From: Clostridia bacterium
GTDB lineage: Bacteria > Bacillota > Clostridia > Christensenellales > Borkfalkiaceae
Assembly (NCBI GenBank): GCA_017621155.1
Contig: JAGATP010000059.1
Location: forward strand, 1 to 51,166
Direction of reading: 5' to 3'
Length of the DNA: 51,166 nt
Shown here: in pieces, positions 30,401 to 51,166 of the stretch
Layout of the letters: each line of letters opens with the position of its first letter
Numbering within the stretch: the stretch's first letter is position 1
The notes under the pieces: model-generated
The model's input: only the letters and a program-made list of their open reading frames with translations
The model's database searches: none
What the model was told of the DNA's origin: nothing
Program-made: the position numbers and the translations under genes

Positions 30401-33172
30401 TTAGTTTTCCTTTTTCGATTTTACGAGCATCACGATCGAGAATCCGAGATATCCGAGAATCAAGACGCTGCAACAAATATCGATGGGAAGCGCAACTTTA
30501 TCAAACCAACTCGTATCGAGAGGAGCGGGAGAGACGGAAGTCTGCGCAACCGCATTCAGAATATGTTCGCAAGCCGTCCTCATATAATTCTGATAAGTAA
30601 TGCTGTTCTTTGCGGCTTCGCTGATCGAGGGCTGTTTTGCAAACGGAACGGAGAGCCACGTATCGACGCCTGTGGGGACGCAGAAATCGGGTTCTTCCCA
30701 ACCTGCACTGTCGTACATATCCGTTACGACCGCGCCGTAGAATCCCCATTCGTCGCGAAGAAGATCCTGACAAAGTGCCGTAGAATTCCCGACAAACGTA
30801 TTGCCGATTCTGTTCATCGAAACCATGATGCCGAGCGTTCTGCCTTCCTTCACGGCAATCTCGAAGGGTTTGAAGAAAATCTCTCTCATTGCCTGTTCAT
30901 TGCACCACGTCGCAATCGAAGTAAAGCGTTCGCCACGGTAGGAATCCTGATCGTTGAGCGCAAAGTGTTTGACAAACATCAGCGTTCCTTCTTCCCTTGC
31001 CGCATACGTGACGGCTGCGGAGAACTTACCCGCCATAAATCCGTCTTCCGAATAATATTCGAAGTTACGTCCGCAATAAGGCGTTCTGTGAATGTTGGTT
31101 GCAGGTGCCATAAATGCACCGACGGAAGAAGCGCGCGCCTCACGCGCCATCAATTTCGCTTCCTGAGCGGCAATTTCCGTGTTCCAAGTCTGCGCGACCA
31201 TCATTTCGACGGGGAAGTTCGCGCCGCTCTTGCCTGCCATCCAAGCGCTCAGTCCCTGAGGGCCTTCGCCGACGGTAACGCCTTCGAATCCGATGGACTC
31301 CGTCGCTTGAATCGAATAGGCGTTCTTGATGATCAACTTCTCCATTTCGTCCAACGTCATCTGATCGAGAAGAAGCTGCATCTTTTCCTGATACTCGGGA
31401 TCTTTGTAATAGAGTCCCTTCAGATCGTCAATCGTAAGCCCGTTCTTCGCGCCCGTCGTGATGGGCTTTGCGTTCGGGTCTTCCTTCCAAGCGATGGAAG
31501 CGGAAAACCGTTCCTTATCTTCCGTAGTGGCGGCTCTTCCCACAAGATCGGTTTCGATCACGGAAGGAACTTCATGCGCCACGGGGAACGTTCCCGCAAA
31601 GTTGCCCCTCGAAAGATATTTGACGGGAACCGTTTCGTTCTGTCCTGCCGCATCGTCGAAGAGGTTTTTGATTTCGGTATCCGTCACGGGATCGTTGGTG
31701 ATAGTTACGTTCTGACCGAGCGTATACTCCTTTGCGACGGAAATGACCTCGTGCGCGTTTTTCATCAATTTCAACTCATACTTTCCCTTTTCGAGAACGT
31801 AGCCCGTCTTTCCGTCCCCATTGGCGTCATTATAATCGTACGAAGCGATTTCAAAGGGATCAACTTCGATCGTCACCGTATCCGTTTCACCGGGGGCAAG
31901 GAACTTGGTCTTTGCAAATCCGACGAGATCCACGGCAGACTTCTCGATTCCGCCCTTCGTATAGGGGGCGGTTGCATAGAGCTGTACGACTTCTTTTCCC
32001 GCATGTTTTCCGGTGTTGGAGACCTCAACCGTCACGGTAATCTTGTCGGACGTCAGGTTGCCGCTGACCTCTGTTACGTTCTGTTCAAAGTCGGTATAGG
32101 AAAGCCCGTATCCGAACGGATACTGAACGGTCGCATCGTAGTCGATATAGCCCTCGGCAGCAGCCGTCTCGTAGTACTTATAACCGACGTAGATTCCTTC
32201 CACGTAATCGACGTAATAGTATCTCTTGTACTGTCTTTGACCCGCAGGCTCGTTCTGATAATCGGAATAGACGAAAGAGCCGTTCCGATTCGCATAGTAA
32301 TAGGCAGGGGAAGACTTATGGTCATAGGCGTAAGTATCGACGAGCCTTCCGGAAGGATTCGCTTCTCCGTTTAGAATTTTTCCGAGAGCAACCGCACCCG
32401 TCTTTCCGGGTCCCGGCATGGAGAGGATCGCATCCACGTTCTTTTCCTCAAGATACCCAAGCTCCATTGCCGCGTTGGAATTGAGAATGACGATGACTTT
32501 CGAATAGTTCGCTTTCAGATAATCAATGAGTTCCTTTTCCGCATCCGTCAGGGAAAGATATCCCGCAGGAAGGTCGAAGCCCTCGCCGCTCGTCCTTCCG
32601 AACGTAACAATCGCAACGTCGGAAAATTCTTTCGCTTCTTTTAAAATCGCATCCGAATAGACTTGTTTATCCGTCGATACGGAAGGTTCGGGGATGACGA
32701 ATTGAGGCGTATAACTGCCGTAAATCGTATTGGGGTTCGTGGGATCACCGCTTCTGTTGCCGTTGTATGCCGCATACGCATTGTACAAATTCTCGTTGAC
32801 GGTAAAGCCCGCCTTTTCGAGGGATGCCTTGATGTCCATGCTCGCACCGGACGCACCGCCGGAGCCTCCCGATCCTCCGACGACAAGGTTCGTAGAAGAC
32901 CATCCGAACAAATTCACTTTCCCCTTAGACAGAGGAAGGGCATTTCTCTCGTTGCGGAGCATCACGATGCCTTCTTTGACGATTTCCTCCGTAAACGCTT
33001 CGGATTCCGTCTTTGCAGCCGTTGCTTCGGGGCTGTCCAAAGAGATGCCCATATCTCCGAAGTACATCGTTGCAAGGTCGAATAACGATACAAGGGCGAT
33101 GTTTGCCGCGACAAGAACTGCCGTCAATGCGCCGCTGATGCACGTATTCAGAATCGCTGTTTTTCTTTTCAT
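30401..33172 (-). CDS. Glycoside hydrolase family 3 (beta-glucosidase-like) with inverted domain order and membrane anchors
   Basis: This 923-residue protein starts behind GGAGG. Order: TM helix (residues about 7-31), GH3 C-terminal alpha/beta domain (FGWSSTNLVVGGSGGSGG, SMPGPGKTGAVALG), an Fn3-like domain (residues about 380-480), then the TIM-barrel catalytic domain (KHFALNDQDSYRGERF, GFYGAVVTDM with nucleophile Asp818), and a second TM helix (895-918). Most GH3 enzymes have the barrel first; the reversed order is known from Ruminococcus albus-type enzymes. It likely cleaves beta-linked oligosaccharides at the outer face of the membrane. It follows a LytTR two-component system but has its own promoter. 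Confidence 0.92.
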   Translation of the reverse strand: MKRKTAILNTCISGALTAVLVAANIALVSLFDLATMYFGDMGISLDSPEATAAKTESEAFTEEIVKEGIVMLRNERNALPLSKGKVNLFGWSSTNLVVGGSGGSGGASGASMDIKASLEKAGFTVNENLYNAYAAYNGNRSGDPTNPNTIYGSYTPQFVIPEPSVSTDKQVYSDAILKEAKEFSDVAIVTFGRTSGEGFDLPAGYLSLTDAEKELIDYLKANYSKVIVILNSNAAMELGYLEEKNVDAILSMPGPGKTGAVALGKILNGEANPSGRLVDTYAYDHKSSPAYYYANRNGSFVYSDYQNEPAGQRQYKRYYYVDYVEGIYVGYKYYETAAAEGYIDYDATVQYPFGYGLSYTDFEQNVTEVSGNLTSDKITVTVEVSNTGKHAGKEVVQLYATAPYTKGGIEKSAVDLVGFAKTKFLAPGETDTVTIEVDPFEIASYDYNDANGDGKTGYVLEKGKYELKLMKNAHEVISVAKEYTLGQNVTITNDPVTDTEIKNLFDDAAGQNETVPVKYLSRGNFAGTFPVAHEVPSVIETDLVGRAATTEDKERFSASIAWKEDPNAKPITTGAKNGLTIDDLKGLYYKDPEYQEKMQLLLDQMTLDEMEKLIIKNAYSIQATESIGFEGVTVGEGPQGLSAWMAGKSGANFPVEMMVAQTWNTEIAAQEAKLMAREARASSVGAFMAPATNIHRTPYCGRNFEYYSEDGFMAGKFSAAVTYAAREEGTLMFVKHFALNDQDSYRGERFTSIATWCNEQAMREIFFKPFEIAVKEGRTLGIMVSMNRIGNTFVGNSTALCQDLLRDEWGFYGAVVTDMYDSAGWEEPDFCVPTGVDTWLSVPFAKQPSISEAAKNSITYQNYMRTACEHILNAVAQTSVSPAPLDTSWFDKVALPIDICCSVLILGYLGFSIVMLVKSKKEN

Positions 33173-45614: not shown

Positions 45615-48600
45615 ATGAACAATCAGGAAAAAAAGGAAATGCAGAGCGCAGCAGATGCGCTTTCTGCGACAGTGACGGACGGTGCAAAGAGCACGGTGGA
45701 GTACAAGCAGAGCTACTGCGAAGGCTCGGTCGGCGAAGCGGGCAGCTACAGGGTGAATCAGCGAACGGGCTTTCTCACCTTCGAAAAGGAGCTGTTTGCC
45801 CTCGGCGGCGAAAAAATGCCTATGTGCATGAAGCTCGTATACCGTCAGGAGGAAGCGGAGGCATCGGATATGCAGACGGGATTCCCCCGCGGCTGGAAGC
45901 TCAATTATCAGCAGTATATCTATGCTAAGGAGGGAAAATACGTCTATGTAGACGGAGACTATCAGAGGCACGTCTTTGCGCCCATTACGGCGGGAAGTCT
46001 CTATTACGACACCGATCGGACGGGACTGTTGCTGCGAATTACAAACGGCGTCGTCAAAATTACGGACGACAGAACGTTGGAGTGCACCTTCACTTCGGGC
46101 AAACTCACGGAGATCAAGCAGACGAAGGGCACTTCGGAAATGAAGACCACCATCGCCTACAACGGCAAAAATATGACGATTACGGACGGCATGGGGAGAG
46201 ACGCGACCGTGACGGTGAGCGGGACGAGTATTTCCATCGTCAAACCGGATAAAAAGACCATTACCTTGACGATCGCAAACGGGAATTTGACTTCTCTGAA
46301 AGCAGTTGCCCATGCGAGCGGGGAGAACACAAGCACCTTTGCCTACAGCGGCAACAAGCTGACTTCCGTATCCTCGTACAGCGGGGAAAGCGTTGAATTT
46401 ACCCAAGGAACGACCAACGTAAGCAAAATCGTGGATAAAATCGGCGGGCAGATCGTGCGCGTTCGCACCTTAAAGCGCAAAGAGAAAAGCGTTGAAGTCG
46501 CAACCAGGAACTTCAGCGAAAGCGCACCCCCTATCACCATGAACTACGATTTCAATGAAGATGGAGAGTGCACGGCGAGCATGGAGATCGACGGAACGCT
46601 GAAAACCTCGACGGCGTTTGCCGCATACATGGATGCCGATTATCAGCGCTATACCGTTCGCGATAATCGAACGGCGGAAATCGTCTCTTCGGAAATTTTC
46701 GGCGAATTTATCAGAGATACGGATTTTCAGGATACAACGCCCCGATCCATTCAGCTGAATGGCGGTGAAGAGGCGATGTTCTTCATGGATGCGTATTTGA
46801 AGGGTATTGACGAGGGGCAACAGCTGAGCACACCCGTGACGGTAGACGTATCCTTGATCCAAAATATGGAAACCGTAGGGGAGTTGCACCTTTCGCTTGC
46901 CGAAGGCGGAACGCAGCTGAAAGCATGCAGAGTGCCGAAGCTCACTTCGGGAGCAACCTTTATCTTTGAATTTCACGCCAGAGACATCCCCGTGAACGTT
47001 CCCTTGATGGTAAACGGAGTCGGCGTAACCAAGGCAATCCGATCGGCGACGCTCGATTGTGTGGATATCGATGTTCCGAACGCAGAGTCTTATAAAATCG
47101 GAGACAAGACGTGGCGTGTCGTGCAGAGCTATAAGCTTGCAGGTGTCAGCGACTGCGTAAAAGTGACCGTCGCGGATTACAATCGGACGCTGAGAAATTA
47201 CAAGAAAAACAACAGCTCTTATATCGCATGGTATAACGGCATGACCAAAGCCGCATTAAAGAGCGGAGCGGTATCCTACACGGTCAACGATACAACCCAG
47301 ACGATCGGCTTTTCCTACGGAACGGTCAGCTTGCAGGGTGAAATCGTCACCTCTGACTACGTGCAATACACGGATACGGATGCAACCGAGATTAAGTGCA
47401 CGCAGAAGGGAACGTCTTCCCGCACGGAAACCTCTACTTTCAACAAATACGATCTGACCACGTCCGTGACGGACGGAACAAAGACCGCTTCCTATGACTA
47501 CAATGTTTACGGCTGTCTTTTGAGCGAACAAATCTCTGCGGACAACAGTACCATGTACTTCAAGAGCGACTACTCGACGGACGGAAAATTCCTCGTCGAG
47601 GAAAGGGACTATGCGGGTGCGGAGGCAAACGTGCAGAAATATGCCTATACCGAAAACACGGGCAACCTTTCTTCCGACACCGATCCCGTCTTTCTCACGA
47701 CGAACTACGCCTATGCCGCCGACAACGAGGCGCTTTCCAAGCTCTCCGCGACGGTTGAAAGCAAGGAAAATTCGAATGCCTTTACGTACGATTCCAAGAA
47801 GAGAATCTCCGCTATTGCGCATAACGGCTTTTCTTACACTTTCGGTTACGGCTCGAGAAACGAGATTACTTCCGTTGCCGCAGGCGGTACGACTCTTCTG
47901 ACCAAGACCTATACCTACAACATTTCGGACGGCTCGTATACCGTTTCGGATAAGTATGGAAACAATCAGAGCATTTCAAAGGCATATGACAGATACGGGA
48001 GACTTTTAAGCGACGGAGAGATCCTTTATACCTATGGCGTAAAGGAAAACACTTCCGGAGTCCAACCGATCAATGCAATTTTGCTCAAAAAGGTTGACAA
48101 TGGTTTGACAACGGAGTATAATTATAATGAATTGGAACAGCTGTCTAGTTGGGACAGAAGCGACGACGTGCATTACACGAGGGGCTACGACAAGCAGGGC
48201 AGAGTGACAAGCGAGAGCGTCTCGTTCGGAACTGCGCCGCAAAACACCGTCCTTTCCAATGCTTATACCCACGACGACATCACGCATCCCGGAACGCTTT
48301 CTTCCGAAAGTGCGTCCATCGGAAACCTCAACTACAAGACGTTTTACGACTATGACGCACTGGGCAGATTGTCCTCGAAGACGTTAAAGGTCGGCAACGT
48401 CGGCGTTAAGAATGATGCTCTGATGCAAGTCCTAAAGTACACCACGGCATATGTCGGCGTATCCGTAGCGGATGTTCCCGCCAACACGACGGAAAGACTG
48501 CAAATGTGGAGATGCGTCTGGAGCACAAGCACGTTTACCGATTGGTATACGCAGGATAAAAACGGAAATATTCTATCCGTATTGGGAGAAGGCGGAAACA

Positions 48601-50024
48601 ATTCCGCAAGCTATGAATACGATAAACTAAGCCGCTTGACGCGAGAGAACAACCTTGCTCTGAACAAGACGTATACCTATACCTACGACGCGGGCGGAAA
48701 CATCACGTCGAAGAAGGAATACGCCTATACCACGGGAGCGTTGGGAAGCGTACAAAAGACCTATCCCTACGGCTATCGGACGAGCGGATGGAAAGATCAG
48801 CTCTTAAGTTGGAACGGCAAGTCCTTTGCCTACGACAACGCGGGCAATCCCACCACCTACAAGGGCGAAAGCATGACTTGGACGAGGGGAAGGCTGCTGA
48901 GCGGATACGATCATTCCGGTGTAAACTTCGACTACTTCTATTCCGGAAACGGGGAGAGAAAGACGAAGTCTTATGCCGTGAGCGACACCAACTTCGAGAC
49001 GACGAACTACTATTACGAAGGCGGACGCCTTCTGAGAGAAGAGCGGATTACGCAGGATGGCACGAAAAATATCTACTATCAGTATGATGAAACGGGCGTC
49101 ATCGGGTTTATTTACAACGGGTATCAGTACTATTACCGCAAGAATGCGCAGGGAGATATCCTAAGCGTCCATTGCGGAACGGACTTGCACGCGATGTATA
49201 CCTATGACGCATGGGGAAACTGCACGATCAGCTTTGACGCGGCAGGAATCGGCGCGCTCAACCCCTTCCGTTATCGCGGCTACTATCTTGACCGAGAGAC
49301 GGGGCTTTACTACCTGATGACCCGCTATTACGATCCCGAAATCGGAAGATTCGTCAATGCAAATAGCCTTGCGCGTCTCAATCCGAAAGCCTTGAACGGT
49401 TGCAATCTCTATGCTTACTGCGGAGAAAATCCCGTAATGAGGAAAGTAGCAGTAAATCTCGGCAGAGGAAATTTGCCAGCGTTTTCTCATAGCTCTTCAT
49501 CAGGGCAGGGAAATCATCCTTCCGAAACAGTTGTTCCTGCTTCCCCTTCTTTTTGGCAAGCGATTGGAACTTGGTTCGCCAATACATTCGGAGCATATGT
49601 AGACTTGTCCAAGAATGAGGTGTTATCAAGCAAAGACTATTTCTTTTTCGGACATGAAGTAGGAATTACAGTCGAAGAAACAATAGGAGACAATACAAAG
49701 CCTATTTCGGTCTTTGTCCATAATGCAAGCGAATGGTTTCGTTTTTGGGAATATAAAGCGGGAATTTCCCTCAATTTCGGAGAATTTCATGCTTCCTTAG
49801 GACTATGGTTCAATGAATGGGAGGCTTCTATCGGATGGGGCAATTCATCCTTCGATATTGTATATGGGCTCAATAAAATGGGCATAGGGACTTCTCACAT
49901 CAATGATGAAGGAGATAAGGCTTACAATCAAACCTTTATTCGACCAATTCCTGTAGTTGCTGTAATTGTAATCGTTTGTTTAGCTTTTGGGGCACTACCG
50001 GTGTTGGTTTCTGCATTAGCTTAA
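45615..50024 (+). CDS. RHS-repeat protein with variable low-GC C-terminal tip
   Basis: This 1469-residue protein starts behind AGGAG. No signal peptide is visible. Residues about 20-1215 are beta-rich, with many YD/RHS repeats (YDYNVYG, YTYDAGGNITSKKEY, YQYDETGVIGF). The RHS core at about 1217-1275 reads FRYRGYYLDRETGLYYLMTRYYDPEIGRFVNAN and ends in YCGENPVM. After this the composition drops sharply in GC and a tip of about 190 residues follows, with a final hydrophobic segment (VVAVIVIVCLAFGALPVLVSALA). RHS proteins encapsulate and deliver such tips as toxins. The tip here matches no domain I know. A small membrane protein gene follows as putative immunity. Confidence 0.92.
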   Translation: MNNQEKKEMQSAADALSATVTDGAKSTVEYKQSYCEGSVGEAGSYRVNQRTGFLTFEKELFALGGEKMPMCMKLVYRQEEAEASDMQTGFPRGWKLNYQQYIYAKEGKYVYVDGDYQRHVFAPITAGSLYYDTDRTGLLLRITNGVVKITDDRTLECTFTSGKLTEIKQTKGTSEMKTTIAYNGKNMTITDGMGRDATVTVSGTSISIVKPDKKTITLTIANGNLTSLKAVAHASGENTSTFAYSGNKLTSVSSYSGESVEFTQGTTNVSKIVDKIGGQIVRVRTLKRKEKSVEVATRNFSESAPPITMNYDFNEDGECTASMEIDGTLKTSTAFAAYMDADYQRYTVRDNRTAEIVSSEIFGEFIRDTDFQDTTPRSIQLNGGEEAMFFMDAYLKGIDEGQQLSTPVTVDVSLIQNMETVGELHLSLAEGGTQLKACRVPKLTSGATFIFEFHARDIPVNVPLMVNGVGVTKAIRSATLDCVDIDVPNAESYKIGDKTWRVVQSYKLAGVSDCVKVTVADYNRTLRNYKKNNSSYIAWYNGMTKAALKSGAVSYTVNDTTQTIGFSYGTVSLQGEIVTSDYVQYTDTDATEIKCTQKGTSSRTETSTFNKYDLTTSVTDGTKTASYDYNVYGCLLSEQISADNSTMYFKSDYSTDGKFLVEERDYAGAEANVQKYAYTENTGNLSSDTDPVFLTTNYAYAADNEALSKLSATVESKENSNAFTYDSKKRISAIAHNGFSYTFGYGSRNEITSVAAGGTTLLTKTYTYNISDGSYTVSDKYGNNQSISKAYDRYGRLLSDGEILYTYGVKENTSGVQPINAILLKKVDNGLTTEYNYNELEQLSSWDRSDDVHYTRGYDKQGRVTSESVSFGTAPQNTVLSNAYTHDDITHPGTLSSESASIGNLNYKTFYDYDALGRLSSKTLKVGNVGVKNDALMQVLKYTTAYVGVSVADVPANTTERLQMWRCVWSTSTFTDWYTQDKNGNILSVLGEGGNNSASYEYDKLSRLTRENNLALNKTYTYTYDAGGNITSKKEYAYTTGALGSVQKTYPYGYRTSGWKDQLLSWNGKSFAYDNAGNPTTYKGESMTWTRGRLLSGYDHSGVNFDYFYSGNGERKTKSYAVSDTNFETTNYYYEGGRLLREERITQDGTKNIYYQYDETGVIGFIYNGYQYYYRKNAQGDILSVHCGTDLHAMYTYDAWGNCTISFDAAGIGALNPFRYRGYYLDRETGLYYLMTRYYDPEIGRFVNANSLARLNPKALNGCNLYAYCGENPVMRKVAVNLGRGNLPAFSHSSSSGQGNHPSETVVPASPSFWQAIGTWFANTFGAYVDLSKNEVLSSKDYFFFGHEVGITVEETIGDNTKPISVFVHNASEWFRFWEYKAGISLNFGEFHASLGLWFNEWEASIGWGNSSFDIVYGLNKMGIGTSHINDEGDKAYNQTFIRPIPVVAVIVIVCLAFGALPVLVSALA

Positions 50025-50042
50025 TACTAGGAGGGTTCATCA

Positions 50043-50537
50043 ATGACAGTTGAATACGAACTTACGTCAGAACAGATGAGAAAAATGATGGTTCAATTGT
50101 TTTATTACAAAAAGAGAGCTGGGATTTGGATTGGAATTATATTTAGCGTTATCTCTTGTTGTAACATTTTTATCGGAATTATGGGATATGAGGACGCTTT
50201 GATAAGTGGTATTTTTGGGCTCATCGGTTCGATGTCGGTTTTGGTAGCTCTTTTGATTTCTTACAGTATTCTCCAAAAACAACAAAATGTTATTCTTCAA
50301 TATCCTAATGCAGACGGAAAATTGAAACGCAAATTGGAAAGAGAAGGGGATGACTATACTTATACGGATTTGATCAGAGGAAACGTTTTCCACTTTTCCA
50401 AGGCAGAAATTTCTAAAGCGGGGATTTACAAGGAAACCATTATTGTTTCCATGAAGGCGTTAAATAATTACGCCTTTCCGAATACCGAGGAAATCCGAGC
50501 GTTATTCAACCTGTCAATGAAAAATCCAACGAAATAG
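50043..50537 (+). CDS. YcxB-like membrane protein, putative immunity to the RHS tip
   Basis: This 164-residue protein starts 18 bases after the RHS stop, with AGGAGG upstream. Two TM helices lie at about residues 26-48 and 53-78. The cytosolic tail (DYTYTDLIRGNVFHFSKAEISKAGIYKETIIVSMKALNNYAFPNTE) resembles the YcxB-like domain. GC is low, like the RHS tip, so the two were probably acquired together. Position right after a polymorphic-toxin gene suggests immunity; this is inference. A strong terminator closes the unit. Confidence 0.75.
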   Translation: MTVEYELTSEQMRKMMVQLFYYKKRAGIWIGIIFSVISCCNIFIGIMGYEDALISGIFGLIGSMSVLVALLISYSILQKQQNVILQYPNADGKLKRKLEREGDDYTYTDLIRGNVFHFSKAEISKAGIYKETIIVSMKALNNYAFPNTEEIRALFNLSMKNPTK

Positions 50538-50550
50538 GAAAGCCAAGCTT

Positions 50551-50582
50551 GAGAGAAGAGGAATGTCCTCTTCTCTCTTTTT
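50551..50582 (+). terminator. Terminator of the RHS-immunity unit
   Basis: A 12-bp perfect stem (GAGAGAAGAGGA/TCCTCTTCTCTC) with a 3-nt loop is followed by TTTTT. Confidence 0.9.
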
Positions 50583-50708
50583 ATCCCCCGCCGATAACGA
50601 GGAAATTTCTAAGTGATTTTAAGGCTGTAAAACCATATTGAGATATTCTATGCCTTATCTTTTAAAGCACTTCCGCAAGGTTGAAATACACCCTGCGGAT
50701 TTTCTCTA

Positions 50709-50737
50709 TTGACAAATACCCAAAACTGTGTTAAAAT
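50709..50737 (+). promoter_or_regulatory. Promoter directly upstream of the orphan RHS cassette
   Basis: TTGACA, 17 bp, TAAAAT on the plus strand, about 35 bases before the cassette homology begins. Confidence 0.7.
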
Positions 50738-50768
50738 GATAATGAAATCATCCCTTCCGCTCCTTTAA

Positions 50769-51166
50769 AAGGGATACGCCTATACCACGGGAGCGTTGGG
50801 AAGCGTACAAAAGACCTATCCCTACGGCTATCGGACGAGCGGATGGAAAGATCAGCTCTTAAGTTGGAACGGGAAAACTTTTGCTTACGACAATGCGGGC
50901 AATCCCACCACCTATAAAAGCGAAAGCATGACGTGGACGGGAGGTAGAAGACTTTCTACCTATACCCACAACGGAACAAAGTATACTTTTACCTATGACG
51001 GAGAGGGACAGCGCAAGACAAAGATCTTTGGCGACACGACCGTTCGGTACGTTTACGTGGACGGAAAGCTTCTCAAGGAATTGCAAACGGTAAACGGCGA
51101 AGAAAAAGAAATTCTCTATCAGTATGATGAGACGGGCGTCATCGGGTTTCTCTACAACGGGTATCA
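50769..51166 (+). pseudogene. Orphan RHS C-terminal cassette (runs off the window)
   Basis: The frame is open from just after a TAA at 50766-50768 to the window end, with no start codon of its own. It begins with 99 bases identical to 48719-48817 of the main RHS gene (YAYTTGALGSVQKTYPYGY). It then diverges in its middle (GGRRLSTYTHNGTKYTFTYDG) and rejoins at YQYDETGVIGF. It is a displaced tip module of the kind found downstream of rhs genes, able to replace the main tip by recombination. The toxin end lies beyond the window. Confidence 0.85.

Follow-up and report, generated by a model that had tools for sequence, protein, structure and literature searches.

A probable tip-switching RHS toxin locus in a Clostridia bacterium, with a rare hydrophobic-tailed tip and a likely two-helix immunity partner

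The window analyzed here is a complete contig, C23 (JAGATP010000059.1; 51,166 bases, forward strand), from the assembly of a Clostridia bacterium of the family Borkfalkiaceae (GCA_017621155.1, here G000; 59 contigs, 97.8% complete). Its right end carries a rearrangement hotspot (RHS) gene whose product finishes in a C-terminal tip of an uncatalogued family, followed directly by a gene for a small protein with two predicted transmembrane (TM) helices and then by a start-less copy of the end of the RHS core. On the sequence evidence, this is likely a polymorphic toxin locus that switches tips and has a probable immunity gene beside the main gene. Its features are as follows.

45615..50024, + strand: RHS main gene, open reading frame (ORF) of 1469 amino acids with an ATG start and AAAGGAGATTGTATT 5' of the ATG
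45753..45977, + strand: DUF6531 (PF20148), residues 47-121, 24.5 bits (cut-off 24.1)
48719..48817, + strand: 99-base exact repeat, main-gene copy
49203..49439, + strand: RHS-associated core end (TIGR03696), profile match to model positions 1-69 of 76
49380..49448, + strand: site resembling the DPxG-x18-DPxG motif, with the first Asp replaced by Asn 1256 (codon 49380-49382) and the second by Val 1278 (codon 49446-49448)
49440..50021, + strand: tip, residues 1276-1469, a linker of about 35 residues followed, by prediction, by one helix, 11 strands, and a helix at the C terminus
49941..50021, + strand: hydrophobic C-terminal helix of the tip, residues 1443-1469, from prediction and hydropathy
50043..50537, + strand: 164-residue protein with two TM helices, likely immunity protein, AGGAGG ribosome-binding motif, 18 bp after the RHS gene
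50551..50577, + strand: terminator-like hairpin and T run, 3' of the likely immunity gene, fold z -4.81
50672..50699, + strand: second hairpin, 5' of the promoter-like site, z -2.59 (counterparts -4.77 on C16/L012 and -7.43 on C28/L013)
50709..50737, + strand: predicted sigma-70 promoter, TTGACA-17-TAAAAT, its second hexamer preceded by TG, oriented toward the fragment
50769..51166, + strand: RHS core fragment without a start, truncated by the contig end
50774..50872, + strand: 99-base exact repeat, fragment copy

The main gene is an unbroken frame of 1469 codons with a good ribosome-binding site. An earlier sequence-only reading of this DNA had placed the end of the core at about residue 1275, and the TIGR03696 match (62.2 bits, cut-off 32.5) ends at residue 1275; RHS/YD repeats also score above curated cut-offs (PF05593, 30 bits; TIGR01643, 37.4 bits). 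The low-GC tip of about 190 residues described in that reading measures 194 residues, with a GC fraction of 0.414 against 0.508 for the core, 0.36 for the 164-residue gene, and 0.517 for contig positions 1-44000. The terminal hydrophobic helix was likewise recovered, as the last ~27 to 32 residues; among the windows listed, no other part of the RHS protein exceeds hydropathy 1.6. No hydrophobic N terminus was found, the first 60 windows of 19 residues peaking at 0.34. Rhs effectors of the type VI secretion system (T6SS) carry a PAAR domain at the N terminus; none was matched here, and a Pfam scan of the whole RHS protein listed just RHS_repeat and DUF6531 at E≤1. The N-terminal region of the main gene was found once in the genome, and the gene had no match in the other two genomes of the genus, which are 79% and 84% complete. 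The coding sequence also contains an exact sigma-70 consensus (TTGACA-17-TATAAT) at 48094-48122, oriented toward the tip and the 164-residue gene; its second half encodes a Tyr-Asn repeat, and the match may be coincidental.

The tip defines a rare family. As the sequence-only reading had suspected, profile searches with residues 1276 to 1469 retrieved no known family from Pfam, NCBIfam, or PADLOC, and the result listings of the literature searches contain no description of it. Seven members were found, namely, the main gene, one copy each in the relatives G359 and G346, and P0004 to P0007 from the protein database (where P0003 is the G346 copy), one of these family proteins being filed under Clostridiales. 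G359 and G346 hold the only copies besides the main gene found among 398 genomes of the family (G000 included), 92 of which carry the RHS core at E≤0.001, 84 of them above the family cut-off; a further match in G267 has an E value of 0.007 and no visible RHS gene in the surrounding 3.2 kb. In G359, G346, P0004, P0006, and P0007 the tip comes after RHS core residues; P0005 begins within the tip. The only other complete locus found is that of G359, with the related tip on a complete RHS gene. The hydrophobic tail is present in the aligned members that reach the C terminus. Ten columns are invariant across the seven members (three Gly and one each of Glu, Lys, Pro, Phe, Trp, Tyr, and Asn).

Wider searches yielded no further members. 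Four weak matches outside G000 among 396 genomes of the order (E values of 6e-4 to 0.01) lacked an RHS-like frame and were judged to be chance, the scans of genomes and viral contigs with the tip or its family gave no match, and a region search with the tip returned the tip itself only. Seven Leptospira records from a plasmid scan with P0004 were set aside, as their listed spans (query 1-39 or 1-100) lie in the core end and reach no further than the beginning of the tip. The tip alignment gave two weak matches to PDB sequences (E values of 0.13 and 0.45), both to the core end of teneurin-like proteins. Fold searches returned middling matches only, with the soluble barrels and lipid-transfer folds PRELID/Ups1, dirigent, and nitrobindin scoring nearly equal to membrane barrels; both tip models derive from a single set of six sequences and hence do not corroborate each other independently. 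Beta-strand alternation, considered as a sign of membrane strands, was inconsistent (P < 0.01 in two of the seven members, 0.06 to 0.08 in two, and >0.2 in three) and is not used as support. In a hand-picked set of 39 cassettes from 16 loci (the C23 locus, L012, L013, L026, L027, L068 to L075, and L077 to L079), 34 of the 39 tips contain a hydrophobic segment, which falls within the last 60 residues, as in the main-gene tip, in 9.

The 164-residue protein has two stretches above hydropathy 1.6, at residues ~25 to 48 and ~53 to 76, in agreement with the two TM helices proposed earlier. The accompanying YcxB label, which we take to be the name of a Pfam family, is without Pfam support: it is absent from the matches listed at E≤1 for this protein and four relatives, which leaves room for a distant relation. 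The top Pfam hit, DUF993, scores 17.1 bits (E value of 0.003), short of its cut-off of 24, and two NCBIfam equivalogs (E values of 0.07 and 0.13) and PADLOC ThsA1 (E value of 0.01) were also weak or marginal. A lipobox pattern that flagged the protein is regarded as a false positive. One search with the protein returned only itself, and 9 of the 398 genomes, counting the source, hold a match at E≤0.01, with clear relatives in G359, G395, G284, and G302. In G359 the tip-bearing RHS gene is followed directly by a 157-residue protein with two TM helices that is homologous to the 164-residue protein (26% over 105 residues, pairwise E value of 7e-8). This is the sole match to it at E < 0.01 among 51 other distinct cassette neighbors (E value of 3.6e-6). 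The G346 tip has a lipoprotein-like ORF after it instead of a two-TM protein.

Two other contigs of the same genome, C16 and C28, start within the same core, at 87% and 88% DNA identity, and continue into two different tips, which are followed by a 222-residue lipoprotein-like ORF and an 80-residue ORF, respectively. The presence of different tips on near-identical cores indicates that the tip is not a fixed structural end of the RHS protein, and the idea of a conserved end of this RHS subfamily is thereby ruled out. A second RHS locus on contig C25 (L014, 46000-60000) has repeated core-end fragments, marked by several copies of the stretch DYTLDRNGIMCDNILELLPYMYAIYTMQELSADP, followed by other ORFs; the locus has other tips and three related ORFs of 168 to 197 residues with hydrophobic stretches judged by eye.

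Pairing of tips with their neighbors was examined across a wider range of cassettes. From 58 distinct tips found, the 52 cassettes with a distinct neighbor, from 28 genomes, were used. Tip comparison was confined to the last 100 residues, and pairs within one genome were excluded. Neighbors were related in 20 of 34 pairs with related tips versus 5 of 1252 with unrelated tips, and none of 5000 permutations reached 20; a looser first count that included pairs within genomes gave 22 of 58 versus 4 of 1268. In the hand-picked set of 39 cassettes, hydrophobic segments occur in 28 of 36 neighbors, the 164-residue protein included, versus 13 of 39 control ORFs, and two or more such segments occur in 24 versus 8. 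Taken together, the paralogous tips, the homologous neighbor in G359, and the coupling across cassettes argue for a tip-switching locus with a likely immunity partner, and at the level of sequence the toxin/immunity pairing proposed earlier holds.

Downstream of the likely terminator, which had also been noted before, the start-less fragment with its 99 identical bases was found as described. No exact repeat shared by main gene and fragment is longer than these 99 bases, which lie in a 179-bp stretch of 92% identity, and none of the four in-frame start codons of the fragment has a ribosome-binding motif. Three facts had escaped the sequence-only reading, namely, the contig break within the fragment, the loss of the two aspartates (below), and the predicted promoter before the fragment. 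The right end of C23 (position 51166) falls within the fragment, and three contigs of the assembly (C23, C16, and C28) break inside this core; the first 24 bases of C28 and the last 24 of C23 differ at one position, and the matching stretch of C16 differs too, so neither contig overlaps the end of C23 exactly. Since the window is the whole of C23, the tip of the fragment lies outside it. The proposed orphan tip cassette is thus seen only in its layout, which recurs as tandem cassettes in several relatives, and its tip is extrapolated from the paralogous contigs.

The promoter-like site has counterparts on both of these contigs. A 33-base pattern built on it (up to three mismatches) matches the genome three times, on C23, C16 (L012 1898-1930), and C28 (L013 1416-1448), each time downstream of a tip/neighbor pair. 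The gene that follows is presumably RtcB-like on C16, and the next likely gene on C28 is presumably rubrerythrin-like and on the opposite strand. Since the similarity between C23 and C28 extends to 50770 and that between the fragment and the main gene starts at 50769, the element apparently belongs to the unit that is repeated. Among the relatives, 12 regions picked from the top RHS-core matches in family genomes were surveyed (L076, for which the pattern used gave no core, was excluded, and L078 was left out of the junction counts), and the fetched regions hold arrays of up to five cassettes each. Near-consensus promoters stand at 13 of 23 cassette junctions in the forward direction versus 1 of 23 in reverse, or, by array, 9 of 11 versus 1 of 11; an earlier count with two array ends included gave 13 of 25 versus 1.7 expected from mononucleotide shuffles. 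Copies within an array are not independent and several of these promoters sit within the open frame of a fragment, so the counts are only a hint. A strict ribosome-binding motif precedes 10 of 34 likely immunity genes and 1 of 23 orphan cores, the C23 fragment being among the 22 without. In G346 (contig C15, L027), tandem tip cassettes are linked by a repeated 26-residue core piece ahead of the core-end motif, with TTGACA-17-TAAAAT at both junctions.

Rhs toxins of the Tse5/RhsA type free the tip by means of an aspartyl protease whose motif is DPxG-x18-DPxG, and a Tse5 variant in which one of these aspartates is altered no longer outcompetes sensitive cells (PMC10684867). Of 61 distinct core ends, 58 have Asp at the second position and 40 at the first, and the main gene of C23 is one of two that lack both. 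The first Asp is absent in 21 of the 61, including P0006 and P0007 of the same tip family, which indicates that the first position is not strict in this lineage. C16 and C28 keep both aspartates at the motif spacing, with DPET or DPEA rather than DPxG as the first motif. For the main gene two possibilities follow, either that the tip works while attached or after another cut or that the gene is a parked toxin.

On balance, the reading that we favor is that the uncatalogued tip is an antibacterial, membrane-damaging toxin carried by an RHS-core gene with a start-less core copy behind it and is neutralized by the two-helix protein. The tip would be held by the RHS shell and, once in a target cell, would engage the cytoplasmic membrane, where it probably acts, through its hydrophobic C-terminal helix and its beta-rich domain. 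Siblings would be protected by the 164-residue neighbor, located in that same membrane, and the fragment downstream would be part of a displaced tip/immunity cassette, whose tip could be placed on the main gene by recombination through the shared core with its 99 identical bases. With the predicted promoter before the fragment, the displaced immunity gene may be transcribed while its toxin stays untranslated. A bolder and rather doubtful extension is a new class of RHS toxin, in which a hydrophobic-tailed beta-meander inserts into the target membrane while still attached to a protease-less shell and is countered by a two-helix immunity protein, with displaced cassettes that, in this bacterial family, have their own promoter; these promoters would pair silent tips with constantly expressed immunity.

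Two other accounts of the toxin, each appreciable though unlikely, share part of the evidence. The tip could be a toxin that does no membrane damage, a soluble domain resembling a beta-barrel that binds or acts as an enzyme at the cell surface or outside it and uses its hydrophobic C terminus for anchoring or translocation, as the near-equal scores of soluble barrel and lipid-transfer folds, the variable strand alternation, and the lipoprotein-like neighbor of the G346 tip would allow. The ten invariant columns hold no catalytic-looking set, however, and the hydrophobic tail in the aligned members that extend to the C terminus, together with two-TM partners in two genomes, points to the membrane itself. 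Alternatively, the main gene could be a decayed or parked toxin that lost tip release with both aspartates, at a locus serving mainly as a bank of immunity genes. Asn and Val at motif positions of which the second is Asp in nearly all core ends, the loss of competition in the Tse5 mutant (PMC10684867), and the near absence of starts with ribosome-binding sites in downstream core fragments all fit such a bank, but the main frame is intact with a good ribosome-binding site, the first Asp is dispensed with elsewhere in the same tip family, and a tip with a hydrophobic tail might insert without being released or be freed by a different protease.

Doubts about the partnership and about the assembly carry less weight. 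No RHS gene was seen near three of the four clear relatives of the 164-residue protein (G395, G284, and G302, with 2.4 to 3.5 kb fetched; the check covered search matches other than L023 to L025), which weighs against an immunity role, as does the different neighbor of the G346 tip. The earlier concern that the protein might be widespread away from RHS genes thus applies to its surroundings, and not to its distribution, which is sparse. That it is an unrelated membrane gene that merely lies downstream is nevertheless improbable, given the homologous neighbor beside the homologous tip in G359, the coupling of tips and neighbors across genomes, and the 18-bp spacing and low GC common to tip and gene. 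A chimera, with core and tip misjoined through near-identical core copies, would be consistent with the three contigs that break within this core; it is very improbable, since the related tip of G359 sits on a complete RHS gene, and any misjoin must lie upstream of the core end because the core end beside the tip is unlike those of C16 and C28.

The layout is already known from contact-dependent growth inhibition (CDI) and Rhs loci, as described in PMC3150448, PMC3967940, and PMC3482391. The orphan CdiA-CT/CdiI of Escherichia coli EC93 and Rhs-CT/RhsI of Salmonella LT2 likewise have a full gene and neighbor, then a start-less core fragment, and a shared core stretch that could recombine (PMC3150448 and PMC3967940). 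In EC93, the orphan immunity protein is produced and the orphan toxin undetected (PMC3150448, PMC3967940), and the orphan region is cotranscribed from an upstream promoter (PMC3150448), whereas in C23 the fragment follows a terminator and a predicted promoter. The stretch shared in LT2 is 522 bp at 95% (PMC3967940), compared with 179 bp at 92% and 99 exact in C23, and unlike in both systems the tip of the C23 fragment lies beyond the contig end.

The pore-forming Tse5 of Pseudomonas aeruginosa combines an RHS shell with a C-terminal tip that acts on membranes and has a cognate immunity protein, a plan that the C23 locus would share, but it needs a DPXG-x19-DPXG aspartyl protease motif for killing and is tied to the T6SS (PMC10684867), whereas the C23 gene lacks both aspartates and a PAAR match. 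WapA/Rhs proteins of Gram-positive bacteria (Streptococcus suis) also combine polymorphic C-terminal toxins, adjacent immunity genes, and truncated downstream duplications termed Rhs orphans; WapA is apparently exported by an N-terminal Sec signal (PMC12704120), and the C23 protein differs in having no hydrophobic N terminus. TspA/TsaI of Staphylococcus aureus is reported to be a firmicute membrane-depolarizing polymorphic toxin with its own immunity protein, delivered by the type VII secretion system (PMC9484751), while the G000 genome, at 97.8% completeness, gave no WXG100 match and no EssC match over the cut-off (best, 107.3 bits against 778.4).

Elsewhere on C23, a GH3-type glycosidase (30404-33172, - strand) has its C-terminal domain (residues 69 to 331) ahead of its N-terminal domain (residues 648 to 820), a reversed order.

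Four features of this locus are new: the family to which the tip belongs, the partner of that tip, the missing protease pair, and a predicted promoter ahead of the fragment. The polymorphic toxins of this lineage thereby gain a rare tip family, so far uncatalogued, together with its likely immunity protein. The locus also raises the questions of whether an RHS shell lacking the aspartyl protease pair remains able to deliver its tip and of whether displaced immunity genes are transcribed from promoters internal to their cassettes rather than from the main gene.
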